From Victivallaceae bacterium (GTDB lineage: Bacteria; Verrucomicrobiota; Lentisphaeria; Victivallales; Victivallaceae): a stretch of 36,604 nt of DNA. Of the stretch, positions 7,065 to 14,189 are shown one piece after another. Made by a program: the position numbers and the translations under genes. The notes beneath the pieces are model-generated. The model made no database searches. It saw only the letters and a program-made list of their open reading frames with translations, and was not told the DNA's origin. The first letter of the stretch is position 1; the number at the start of each line of letters is the position of its first letter. The stretch covers positions 1 to 36,604 of the forward strand of contig JAQULZ010000008.1 in the NCBI GenBank assembly GCA_028718375.1, in the 5' to 3' direction.

Positions 7065-8339
7065 ATGTCAAATTTCAGCGAAACCGATTGGGAAAACATC
7101 ATTTACCGGGGCGTCGAATCCGAGGAACTCGATTACAAGGCCGCGGTCGACTGGCGCAAACTGAACCGGATCGGAAAAAGTAAATTCGTCCGCCACTGCC
7201 TGGCCATGGCCAACACCAAAGGCGGCTATATCGTCGTCGGTGTCGGCGAAGACGCCGCGGGACAACCTTCGCTGTTCACCGGTCTCACGCCGGAACAGGC
7301 GAAATCTTTTGATCCGACCATCATCGGCAATTTCGTCAATCGTTACGCCGATCCGGAAATCGACTTCACCATTGAACGCCCGCTCGTCAACGCCAAACGT
7401 TACGCCATTTTCGTGATCCGGCCGTTTTCCGATATTCCGCACGTCTGCGCTTATGGATTGAACGATGAACTCCAGGAAGGGGTTTTTTACATCCGAACCG
7501 CCGATGCCGCCAGCCGCGACGCTCACCGCGCCGGTGAAATCCACGCCATCATCCAGCGGGCATTGCGGAACCAGCGCGAACTGCTGGGCCGGATGATCCG
7601 CGGCGTATTGTACGAAAACCGGGACGTGCCGGTACAAAACGCCGCCAGTCATTTCAGAGAGGACGCCGGTAACGGCAAACTGTATTTCCTGCGCCGCCGC
7701 GCCCCTAAAGACCAGCAAAAACCTGCGGTTCTGATGCAGCTGCTGGTCTGCCCGGCCCAATATACTCCGGACCGCTTTACCCTGTCTGAGATCAAACGTG
7801 CCGCCGGCAATTCCTTCTCCCTGTTGTCGGAACCGCATTTCGTTACCGAAAAAGATTTGGACGAAAGTTATTTTTCCAATGTCGCCCTGCGGTCGCTGCC
7901 GAACGGCGAACTGAAAATGTGGCAGATTTTCAAAACCGGCATGTTTCATTATCTGGCCTACTGGCCGACGCCGGATAACAGGATCAGTTACCAATACCTG
8001 CTGCGGTTCGGAGCGGAAGCGGTCAGTTTCCTGGCGCGGTTGTATTCGGAACTCGGCTATGCGGAGGAACTGCTGGACCTCACGCTGCGGCTCAACGACG
8101 TCGAAGACGTCGAACTGGTTGAAACGCCGCAGCCGGAAAACCGGAAGAATTCGCAATACCTGTGCCGCATCCCGGATATCCGCCTGACCTTGCAGCGCAG
8201 CGCCGCCGACCTGGCCAGCGGCCGGGTGGAACACGTTTCCCGGATCATCAAGGAATTGTGCGAACGCTTTAATTTTCCCGACGGCCGCCACGGCAGTCTG
8301 CGCAAAAACATTACCGCTTACCTGGAAAAACGTCCCTGA
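7065..8339 (+). CDS. AlbA_2 (Schlafen-type) domain protein
   Basis: In this 424-aa protein the first 150 residues match the AlbA_2 / Schlafen-like putative DNA-binding domain: ESEELDYKAAV near residue 20, AMANTKGGYIVVGVGED near 50, and a GVFYIRTADAASR strand near 140. The rest is not assigned to a family; it looks soluble and mixed alpha/beta, with no signal peptide or membrane segment. AlbA_2 proteins occur as transcription regulators and in some defence loci, but no partner gene is adjacent. It is a single-gene unit, divergent from rplU and convergent with the secreted-protein gene at 8584. Function unknown. Confidence 0.75.
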   Translation: MSNFSETDWENIIYRGVESEELDYKAAVDWRKLNRIGKSKFVRHCLAMANTKGGYIVVGVGEDAAGQPSLFTGLTPEQAKSFDPTIIGNFVNRYADPEIDFTIERPLVNAKRYAIFVIRPFSDIPHVCAYGLNDELQEGVFYIRTADAASRDAHRAGEIHAIIQRALRNQRELLGRMIRGVLYENRDVPVQNAASHFREDAGNGKLYFLRRRAPKDQQKPAVLMQLLVCPAQYTPDRFTLSEIKRAAGNSFSLLSEPHFVTEKDLDESYFSNVALRSLPNGELKMWQIFKTGMFHYLAYWPTPDNRISYQYLLRFGAEAVSFLARLYSELGYAEELLDLTLRLNDVEDVELVETPQPENRKNSQYLCRIPDIRLTLQRSAADLASGRVEHVSRIIKELCERFNFPDGRHGSLRKNITAYLEKRP

Positions 8340-8370
8340 CCTTCATCCGGATTTACGGCTATATCAAAAC

Positions 8371-8401
8371 CACCAGCTGGGCTGGTGATATGCACCAGCC
8401 C
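8371..8401. repeat. Two mutually exclusive small hairpins
   Basis: CACCAGC (8371-8377) can pair with GCTGGTG (8381-8387), while GGGCTGGTG (8379-8387) can instead pair with CACCAGCCC (8393-8401). The two hairpins share their central arm and so exclude each other. A further GGGC/GCCC pair flanks 8405-8424. It lies in the 240-base gap between the convergent genes ending at 8339 and 8584. Confidence 0.6.
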
Positions 8402-8466
8402 GAAGGGCATATTACCGGCAGCCCTATCAGGTGCTCTGAAAGATTCGCCAATCGCATCTATTTCAC

Positions 8467-8561
8467 AGGCCGCCACTAAAGCGGCCTCATACTGTTGACA
8501 AACCCCTTATTCCGAAAAATAAGGGGTTTGTCAACAGTATGCGGGAGCCGTTCGGCTCCCG
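8467..8561. repeat. Tandem palindromes including a 24-bp perfect-arm hairpin
   Basis: Three hairpins stand back to back. The first is AGGCCGC/GCGGCCT (8467-8473/8481-8487). The second has perfect 24-bp arms at 8488-8511 and 8518-8541 around the loop CCGAAA; its arms contain TGTTGACAAACCCC and its complement. The third is CGGGAGCC/GGCTCCCG (8542-8549/8554-8561). None is followed by a T-run, so it is not a textbook terminator, though position between convergent genes would allow transcription arrest. It could also be a repeat-element copy or part of a structured RNA. No open reading frame here looks real. Confidence 0.8.
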
Positions 8562-8583
8562 TTCTGAGAATAGGACTGCTGAA

Positions 8584-8979
8584 TTATTCTTCAGAATCCG
8601 ATGATTTTTCCTTTTCGACTACTGCACTGAATGACTTGACCGTAAGCCATAATTCAGTTTTCTTGCCGGTTTCACTTTCGTCGTCTTTCACTTCTTTCGT
8701 TTCGACCGTACCGGTTACGGTGACTTTTTTGTCTTCCATGTCCTTAGCCAATTTCTTGCCGTTTTCGTCCAGCACGATGTTATAGGCCACATCATCACTG
8801 GCGATTTTGGCGCTTGCTACCGCGTCATCTTCGTTTTTAGTGACGGACAGGGTTCCGGTAACCACTTTTTCTTCTGCTTTCACCGCCGCTGCCGCCGGAG
8901 CCGGATCAGCCGCAGTAACGACAGGAGTTAAGCAAAAAGCGGACGTAATAATCCCGGCAAAAAGAAATAAACATTTCAT
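8584..8979 (-). CDS. Small secreted protein, possible OB-fold
   Basis: The product is 131 aa with a clear Sec signal peptide (KCLFLFAGIITSAFCL, cleavage likely after TAA near residue 24). The mature part is short and highly charged, with strand-like blocks VVTGTLSVTK, AYNIVLDENGKKLAKDM, KKVTVTGTVETK and LWLTVKSFSAV. This pattern resembles small periplasmic OB-fold proteins. The tail is acidic (KEKSSDSEE). It lies 39 bases after the 28-residue peptide gene on the same strand and is likely co-transcribed from the -24/-12 promoter at 9172-9188. Function unknown. Confidence 0.75.
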   Translation of the reverse strand: MKCLFLFAGIITSAFCLTPVVTAADPAPAAAAVKAEEKVVTGTLSVTKNEDDAVASAKIASDDVAYNIVLDENGKKLAKDMEDKKVTVTGTVETKEVKDDESETGKKTELWLTVKSFSAVVEKEKSSDSEE

Positions 8980-11732: not shown

Positions 11733-14189
11733 TTATTTCCGAACTTTCCGGGCGGTTTTGCTGCGCGGAGAACCGGTAAAGACCAGCTTGAACGCCTCCC
11801 CGGCGTTCCGGACAAAATGGAACCGGAGTTTATCCTTGACTTTACCGGGAATATCCTCGAGGTCTTTTTCGTTCTCGAACGGCATAATGATGGTGTTAAT
11901 GCCTGAACGCAAGGCGGCGATCACTTTTTCCTTGATGCCGCCGACAGCGGTGACCTTACCGCGCAAAGTAATCTCCCCGGTCATCGCCAGCCGGGGTTTC
12001 ACCCTCCGGCCGGTCAGCAGCGAAACCAGGGAAACGATCATGGTAATGCCTGCGGACGGCCCGTCTTTCGGGGTCGCGCCGTCCGGGATATGAATGTGAA
12101 AATCGTTTTTATCGAAAACCGTCTGACTGATTTTCAGGGACTCGCCGTGGCTGCGGACGAAACTGAACGCGGCTTCCGCGCTTTCCTTCATGACGTTACC
12201 CAGCGAACCGGTCAGTTTCAGACCGCCTTTACCCGGCATCAGGGTAGTTTCGATCGGCAGGATACTGCCGCCGACGCTGGTCCAGGCCATCCCGGTGGCA
12301 ACGCCGATGTCGGAATATTTTTCCGCTTCGTCGAGGATAAATATCCGGTGTCCCAGATATTCCCGCACCAGTGTCGAATCCACTTTAATACATTTATTCC
12401 CTTCCAGGTTGTTGCGGACGATTTTGGTGGCGATCTTGCGGCAGACTTTGCCGATGGTGCGTTCAAGGTCGCGAACCCCCGCCTCGCGGGTATAATAATC
12501 GATGATTTCATCAATGGCGCTCATGGCAAAGGAAACCTGCCGGCTTTTCAGGCCGTTTTCCTTTAACTGCCGGGGCACCAGGTATTGCCGGGCAATTTGC
12601 TTTTTCTCGAAACCGGTATACCCGGGCAGGCGGATGATTTCCATCCGGTCGCGCAGAGCGGGAGGGATAGTGTCAAGAATGTTGGCGGTCGCGATGAATA
12701 ATACCGAACTTAAATCGAAGTCCAGTTCCAGATAATGATCGTTGAACGTCTTGTTCTGCTCCGGGTCGAGCACCTCCAGCAGCGCCGAGGCCGGATCACC
12801 GCGGTAATCGTTGCCCAGTTTGTCGATTTCGTCAAGCATGAAAACGGGATTGGCGGTACCGGCGCGTTTCAGGCCCTGGATGATCCGGCCGGGAAGAGCG
12901 CCGACGTAAGTACGCCGGTGTCCGCGGATTTCGGCCTCGTCGCGGACGCCGCCTAAGGACATCCGGACAAATTTACGCTGCATGGCGCGGGCAATAGACT
13001 GGCCCAGCGAAGTCTTGCCTACCCCGGGCGGCCCGACAAAGCACAGAATCGGGGCTTTGCGGTCGTTTTTAAGCTGTAAAACGGCGATGAATTCAAGGAT
13101 GCGCTCTTTGACGTCTTCTAGACCGTAATGGTCGTGATCCAGGATTTTCGCGGCCGCGCCGACGTCAAGCCGGTCTTCGGAATAAATCAGCCAGGGAACC
13201 GACACCAGCCAGTCGATATAGTTGAATGCGACATGGTATTCCGGGGAGGCCTGGGGAATCACGGCCAGCCGTTCCAGCTCCTTGCGCACCGTGGAAGCAA
13301 CGTTTTCGGGCATTTTCAGGGTTCCGAGTTTTTTCTCGATGGCGACCACGTCCGGAGTCTTGTTGTCTTCGCCGAGTTCGTGCTGAATGGTCTTGAGCTG
13401 TTCGCGCAGGAAGAATTCGCGCTGGGAGCGGCTCAGAGCATTATGTACCTGAGTCTGAATTTCGGAGCCGAGATGCAGGACCTCGACTTCCCGGTTCAGC
13501 AGAATCGTCAGGGTCTGCAACCGTTCGTGGAGCGTTTCCTGGGTCAGCAGGGATAATTTTTCAACGAAATCGATATTCAGCGTATCGGCGATCAGATCGA
13601 CCAGCCGGACATTGTCATCGAGATTGAGAATCGCAATCTTGAGTTCCTCGGGAAAGTTCGGTGAAAATGAGATTATCTTCTGAAACTGCTTGATCGCGTT
13701 CTTCAGCATAGCCGCAACTTCCAGCGACTCATCCGGTTTACTTTCAAACTCCTTGTAGATTACGCATTCTATCCCTTCGCACCCGGAATACGGTTTAACG
13801 TAGAGAATGCGCTTCAGGCCGCGTACCAGCACCCGTACCGTGCCGTCGGGGAAGTTAAGCATTTTGACAATCCGGACCAGAACGCCCATTCTGGTGATTT
13901 TTTTACCGTTGTGCGTGACGGTTTCGGCTTTAAATTCGATCGATTCGCCGGAAAGTTCTTTTTTCGGGGGCACTTCCGGGAAAATCGCGATCAGGCGGTT
14001 TTCACTGGTGCTTTTTTTGACCATTTTGACTTTTTGTTCGCCGTCGATGACCATCGGCGTCAAAGTATAGGGAAATACCAGCATCGACTGCAAAGTCAAA
14101 ATCGGAGCACAATTATCCGGAAGTTTATCCGATGAACTGAAGTTTTCGGATTTTACCGTGATAATTCCACCGTTACTGTTATTCGGCAT
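11733..14189 (-). CDS. lon: ATP-dependent Lon protease
   Basis: This 818-aa protein has the complete LonA architecture. The N-terminal substrate-binding domain covers residues 1 to about 310. The AAA+ domain has Walker A GPPGVGKTS, Walker B VFMLDEIDKL and the GGVRDEAEIRGHRRTYVGA pore-loop region. The C-terminal protease domain has the catalytic Ser in PKDGPSAGITM and the catalytic Lys in GGIKEKVIAAL. It degrades damaged and regulatory proteins in the cytoplasm. The start at 14189 has a strong AGGAGGG site. No known heat-shock promoter element was recognised in the 190-base upstream gap. It is followed immediately by the LolA-like gene. Confidence 0.98.
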   Translation of the reverse strand: MPNNSNGGIITVKSENFSSSDKLPDNCAPILTLQSMLVFPYTLTPMVIDGEQKVKMVKKSTSENRLIAIFPEVPPKKELSGESIEFKAETVTHNGKKITRMGVLVRIVKMLNFPDGTVRVLVRGLKRILYVKPYSGCEGIECVIYKEFESKPDESLEVAAMLKNAIKQFQKIISFSPNFPEELKIAILNLDDNVRLVDLIADTLNIDFVEKLSLLTQETLHERLQTLTILLNREVEVLHLGSEIQTQVHNALSRSQREFFLREQLKTIQHELGEDNKTPDVVAIEKKLGTLKMPENVASTVRKELERLAVIPQASPEYHVAFNYIDWLVSVPWLIYSEDRLDVGAAAKILDHDHYGLEDVKERILEFIAVLQLKNDRKAPILCFVGPPGVGKTSLGQSIARAMQRKFVRMSLGGVRDEAEIRGHRRTYVGALPGRIIQGLKRAGTANPVFMLDEIDKLGNDYRGDPASALLEVLDPEQNKTFNDHYLELDFDLSSVLFIATANILDTIPPALRDRMEIIRLPGYTGFEKKQIARQYLVPRQLKENGLKSRQVSFAMSAIDEIIDYYTREAGVRDLERTIGKVCRKIATKIVRNNLEGNKCIKVDSTLVREYLGHRIFILDEAEKYSDIGVATGMAWTSVGGSILPIETTLMPGKGGLKLTGSLGNVMKESAEAAFSFVRSHGESLKISQTVFDKNDFHIHIPDGATPKDGPSAGITMIVSLVSLLTGRRVKPRLAMTGEITLRGKVTAVGGIKEKVIAALRSGINTIIMPFENEKDLEDIPGKVKDKLRFHFVRNAGEAFKLVFTGSPRSKTARKVRK

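Follow-up and report, generated by a model that had tools for sequence, protein, structure and literature searches.

Insertion sequences (ISs) of the IS200 group, within the IS200/IS605 family, carry tnpA only, and Salmonella IS200 is their type. A tnpA leader in which an anti-SD sequence pairs with the SD is known in outline for Salmonella IS200. The transposition mechanism of IS608 and ISDra2 predicts a terminal hairpin only. The guide and cleavage scheme of this type of transposition is summarized in PMC6006769. Among described right ends (REs), the IS605 of Halanaerobium hydrogeniformans comes close to the one described below: its RE, described in PMC7290912, is 132 nt long and contains three hairpins that compete, two of which exclude each other, and a PATE-like derivative consisting of the ends only is reported. 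IS 3' terminators may also be left beside host genes, and these have been termed 'mobile attenuators' (PMC2965389).

Hairpin cluster and right end

We analyzed a dense array of palindromes at 8340-8583 of the window, that is, of the whole 36,604-nucleotide stretch from a Victivallaceae bacterium. The features of the region are as follows.

7065-8339, plus strand: convergent gene of 424 aa with an AlbA_2/Schlafen domain
8363-8490, minus strand: IS200-group RE by sequence comparison, with five hairpins; it follows the tnpA stop in intact copies
8369-8389, minus strand: terminal RE hairpin, then TTTTGAT; helix 5, formed in every sequence (100%) and showing compensatory changes
8379-8401, no strand assigned: alternative hairpin GGGCTGGTG/CACCAGCCC, which cannot form together with the terminal one
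8398-8408, minus strand: RE hairpin 4 (GCCC/GGGC), covarying helix 4
8422-8431, minus strand: RE hairpin 3, covarying helix 3, weak in the window and strong in relatives
8442-8453, minus strand: RE hairpin 2 (GATT/AATC), covarying helix 2
8467-8487, minus strand: RE hairpin 1 (AGGCCGC../..GCGGCCT), covarying helix 1, nearest the lost tnpA stop
8488-8541, no strand assigned: palindrome of 24 perfect bp with a 6-base loop, single-copy, located where tnpA and the left end (LE) are missing
8542-8561, minus strand: GC-rich hairpin CGGGAGCCG AA CGGCTCCCG, which was probably once the terminator of gene 8584-8979
8584-8979, minus strand: upstream gene on the IS strand, 131 aa, with a signal-peptide-like N-terminus and an acidic C-terminus

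The elements listed by the sequence-only reading are all present: a mutually exclusive pair of small hairpins (CACCAGC/GCTGGTG at 8371-8387 against the alternative pairing), the GCCC/GGGC stem, three back-to-back hairpins (8467-8487, 8488-8541 and 8542-8561), of which the middle one is perfect with loop CCGAAA, and convergent genes on either side. Its remark that no T-runs follow holds for the 24-bp palindrome and the GC hairpin, but not for the terminal IS hairpin, which runs into TTTTGAT on the minus strand. The cluster is a real, non-chance observation, since shuffled sequences fold far worse and long perfect stems are rare in the genome background. As single-stranded DNA, 8340-8583 folds with z = -10.6 against dinucleotide shuffles, and the 54-nt palindrome hairpin alone with z = -13.6; in 437 kb of the same genome, sampled as twenty 20-kb stretches, only two perfect stems exceed 16 bp, namely the palindrome and a 26-bp stem on contig C11. 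An Rfam scan gave no real match, with weak hits of miRNA precursors to the long stem only, and a scan of a neighbor locus returned a tRNA only. The cluster is composite: about two thirds of it is an IS200-type right end, and the 24-bp hairpin is separate.

A BLASTN search with the segment, which the sequence-only reading had proposed, found copies in 8 of 41 genomes, 7 of the 8 being relatives (7 of 40 related genomes). Nineteen matches come from a single relative, G006, and lie mostly at contig ends, as is expected of a repeated IS that breaks assemblies. The matches span window positions 8363 to about 8490 and then end. On the minus strand, nearly all copies have ...GGTGG-TTTTGAT as their last bases. 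Directly after this end of the RE (...GGTTTTGAT), the flanks diverge in about 28 copies compared, which places the outer boundary at 8363. A covariance model built from eight RE copies (R1) matches the window at 8363-8491 on the minus strand (138 bits, E 2e-37). The suggestion of an IS200-like substrate or non-autonomous repeat was thus right in spirit: judged by sequence, 8363-8490 is the right end of an IS200-group insertion sequence on the minus strand, with a subterminal hairpin and a fixed outer end. The final TTTTGAT is compatible, as a sequence, with single-stranded DNA cleavage at a tetra- or pentanucleotide.

The cognate transposase is found in relatives. At locus L016 the same RE lies behind a 157-aa reading frame and is accompanied by a second hairpin-bearing end; at L014 a decayed tnpA adjoins it. 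The protein belongs to PF01797 (Y1_Tnp, E 3e-41) and scores 156 bits on NF033573, 'IS200/IS605 family transposase' (cut-off 55). Since tnpA adjoins the same RE at both loci and encodes a Y1_Tnp protein, 8363-8490 corresponds to the stretch that runs from the tnpA stop to the right end. According to tblastn, tnpA or a piece of it adjoins the RE in many copies with enough flank. Intact relatives resemble the IS200 group in having a single Y1/HUH TnpA of about 155 aa, with HIH within CPDHIHM, hairpins near both ends, an SD-sequestering leader and no terminal inverted repeats that we could see. The window copy departs from the group in two respects: it has no tnpA, and no LE subterminal hairpin is found in 8491-8583, whereas such a hairpin is present in intact relatives. 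As tnpA is missing, we describe it as a remnant of the IS200 group and not as an autonomous member. The only other copy in its own genome, at C4:43816-43854, matches the left part of the cluster; it is damaged and retains an LE and a tnpA fragment. Only fragments of the cognate tnpA occur in this assembly, which is 87% complete.

Two other assignments were considered for these hairpins. Palindromes accompanied by a Y1-type transposase family recall a RAYT/REP (BIME) substrate, as the sequence-only reading had proposed. However, the cognate transposase reaches only 32.4 bits on NF047646, for which the REP cut-off is 80, and the element, at about 130 nt, lies at an IS end and outside REP arrays, with two genomic copies where REP systems have many short palindromes. 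On transposase score, position and copy number we rejected this assignment as extremely improbable. The conserved structure stops at the RE boundary and is followed by variable flank, a would-be guide, which would suit the scaffold of a TnpB guide RNA (omega-RNA) acting in trans. Yet TnpB (PF07282) occurs in none of the 8 RE-carrying genomes, including the window's own, and there is no Rfam match: for these genomes the idea is largely refuted, and its chances are hardly better than those of a REP substrate.

A conserved structure behind tnpA

Model R1 matches 49 of the 137 genomes of the order. Of 80 tnpA loci scanned in public genomes, nearly all have it directly 3' of a Y1 (PF01797) tnpA; these loci span Lentisphaeria, Clostridia, Bacilli, Fusobacteria and Streptococcus (Victivallis and other Lentisphaeria, many Clostridia, Rummeliibacillus, Lysinibacillus, Heyndrickxia, Propionigenium and Streptococcus halichoeri). 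Covariance analysis of the copies, another proposal of the sequence-only reading, bears out its term 'structured'. We aligned 42 RE sequences, 41 of them from the tnpA-locus scan and a few from the window's own phylum: 24 of 29 pairs have changed on both sides and 93% of cells pair. Slid controls reach a covariation score of 0.075 at most, and the alignment scores 0.443; it was fitted to the model, which favors structure, but compensatory changes are still far above the controls. The alternative pairing that competes with the terminal hairpin in the window is shorter in several relatives.

By analogy with IS608/ISDra2, the terminal hairpin 8369-8389 is expected to have a role in TnpA binding and cleavage: in an intact element, the Y1/HUH transposase would bind single-stranded DNA at this hairpin and TTTTGAT and cut it there. 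The four RE hairpins inside the terminal one are an additional conserved feature, and would correspond to a 3' structure conserved in either the tnpA transcript or the single-stranded DNA end. This 131-nt five-hairpin region, from the tnpA stop to the RE end, sets the clade apart from the IS200 group as described: no Rfam family scores above its gathering threshold on it, and we found no description of it in the literature searched. The general RE pattern is not new, because the Halanaerobium IS605 RE is similar in length, in its several hairpins and in its mutually exclusive pair; that element differs in carrying tnpB, and PMC7290912 is not known to report covariation or a structure shared across phyla.

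The 5' leader of tnpA is conserved in relatives: it contains an inverted repeat of anti-SD and SD, and its core is GGTTTGCCAACC-like.

The 24-bp palindrome and the loss of tnpA

The 24-bp hairpin, the centerpiece of the sequence-only reading, is not part of the RE repeat. No second copy exists in its own genome, none in 77 family relatives and nothing in plasmid and phage collections; an exact scan for the arm in 85,000 species genomes, from which its own or a very near genome may have been absent, found none either. Matches of 16-mers from the arm in relatives L047 and L051 lie in unrelated coding sequence (..FVNSM..), and we dismissed them as coincidence.

The palindrome occupies the exact place of the lost LE and tnpA. 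On the IS strand, the stop of gene 8584-8979 is followed by the GC hairpin 8542-8561, the palindrome and then the RE. The best explanation overall, which we consider very probable, is that an IS200-group element inserted behind a terminator and lost its LE and tnpA, leaving a solo right end. The element, in minus orientation, would have entered directly after terminator 8542-8561 of gene 8584-8979; the left end and the whole of tnpA would later have been lost, and replaced by, or collapsed into, the 54-bp palindrome; and the right end that remains at 8363-8490 would be immobile in cis. Several observations weigh against this history. The window holds no recognizable remnant of LE or tnpA, so that the assignment of 8542-8561 to the same insertion event rests on the habit of the clade described below; that hairpin lacks the T-run expected after it; and the perfection of the 24 bp is not directly accounted for. 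Nor did synteny among relatives reveal an empty site, since gene 8584-8979, which has no Pfam family, has no homolog in 40 relatives.

How the palindrome itself arose can be read in several ways, and it looks like the scar tissue of a rearrangement. The reading we favor, at somewhat less than even probability, takes it for a mobile or fold-back duplication event of its own, such as a template switch in replication, unrelated to function and here placed at the loss of the IS: the arms are perfect, the copy is single, and a comparable 26-bp palindrome exists in the same genome (C11:12217-12279). It could instead be a collapsed tnpA leader of the same IS, giving a PATE or MITE through deletion of the tnpA ORF. 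The leaders of relatives are SD-sequestering inverted repeats with endings such as GGAGGTTTTGTCATG, in which an anti-SD arm (..CCTCC..) pairs with the SD (..GGAGG..) ahead of the start codon; their SD-to-ATG stretch loosely resembles the palindrome arm, and the window has AATAAGGGGTTTGTCAACAGTATG immediately ahead of the RE. Element-internal deletions also exist, as loci L021, L022 and L027 hold LE and RE without tnpA. However, the arms of these leaders measure about 8-13 bp around an interior of roughly 40 bases, against 24 bp and 6, no sequence match is significant, and the 16-mer matches lie in unrelated coding sequence, which makes such a collapse improbable.

We judge it unlikely, though less so than a collapsed leader, that the palindrome works as a terminator in both directions or as an RNase III-type barrier and is kept by selection, with the adjoining IS end incidental. 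In favor are its position between convergent genes, a folding energy of -38 kcal/mol on each strand, and GGGG-TTTGTC, a weak U-tract that both strands show at the 3' side of an inner stem; yet that tract amounts to UUUGU, without the canonical U-run of an intrinsic terminator, the sequence is single-copy, and terminators elsewhere in the genome, given its two stems above 16 bp in 437 kb, are unlike perfect 24-bp stems. The palindrome may also be an assembly artifact.

Returning to the solo right end, its present effect, with that of the palindrome, is likely a passive one: stable hairpins between convergent genes would stop or destabilize read-through transcripts, and the palindrome is possibly now a barrier to transcription. 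As with 'mobile attenuators', an IS 3' hairpin region has remained after loss of tnpA and can affect neighboring transcription (PMC2965389). The window remnant lies between convergent genes and not upstream of a gene, however, so that no downstream gene is expected to be attenuated. Taken by itself, the locus is the decayed end of an IS, and such decay is ordinary and of a known kind. Two general points emerged from it, the covarying five-hairpin 3' region and the position of copies behind terminators.

Copies behind terminators

Upstream of tnpA, the left end of these elements starts right behind a terminator hairpin and T-run. In a scripted test on the IS strand, 43 of 61 copies had a stable hairpin with a T-run no more than 75 nt ahead of the LE hairpin, compared with 13 of 300 random segments drawn from the same loci. 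The copies are partly non-independent, since some loci are related to each other or come from a single genome. IS200-group copies behind terminators come from the tnpA loci L096-L195 and, in the window's own order, from L014 (about 1000-1060), L003 (about 1900-1960) and L018. Survival bias could add to targeting in producing this preference. We found no statement of such a preference for IS200 in the literature searched, which covered sources other than subscription journals.

Because the clade usually inserts just behind terminators, we read the GC hairpin 8542-8561 as a host terminator, by analogy probably the former terminator of minus-strand gene 8584-8979. The hairpin can pair over 9 bp, leaving a loop of 2 bases, or over 8 bp, leaving one of 4, and is single-copy; the T-run expected after it is missing.

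Group IIC introns likewise insert behind intrinsic terminator hairpins. The parallel concerns terminator targeting only, as group IIC introns are retroelements whereas the IS200 clade uses a Y1 transposase. If true, the preference would explain by a simple structural rule where these widespread elements insert and why the harm they cause is small. We may tentatively go further and hypothesize, at rather less than an even chance, that the 131-nt five-hairpin region is a conserved functional RNA or single-stranded DNA fold of a multi-phylum IS200 clade, and that this same clade targets intrinsic terminators. The region might then act, for instance, as a regulator of transposition or a small RNA, and a terminator hairpin with its T-run perhaps mimics the element's own right end (hairpin and TTTTGAT).

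Other repeats were observed as well. A near-identical hairpin, TTCAAAAACAAAAAAA...TTTTTTTGTTTTTGAA, is dispersed in the window's own genome, with common flanks (CTGTTTATCAGCTCT), at L079:54-88, L083:17990-18024, L085:224-258 and L073:4507-4539. Two contigs have intergenic repeats in common, TTTTTGATCGCAACTTGGTAT and TTTCAGGGAAAAACAA...TTTTCCCTGAAA (L003, about 1230-1490; L076, about 11955-12345). The second extreme palindrome of the genome (L076:12202-12294, on contig C11 of G000) is intergenic and has 26 perfect pairs, a loop of 11 and imperfect arms of 41 nt.
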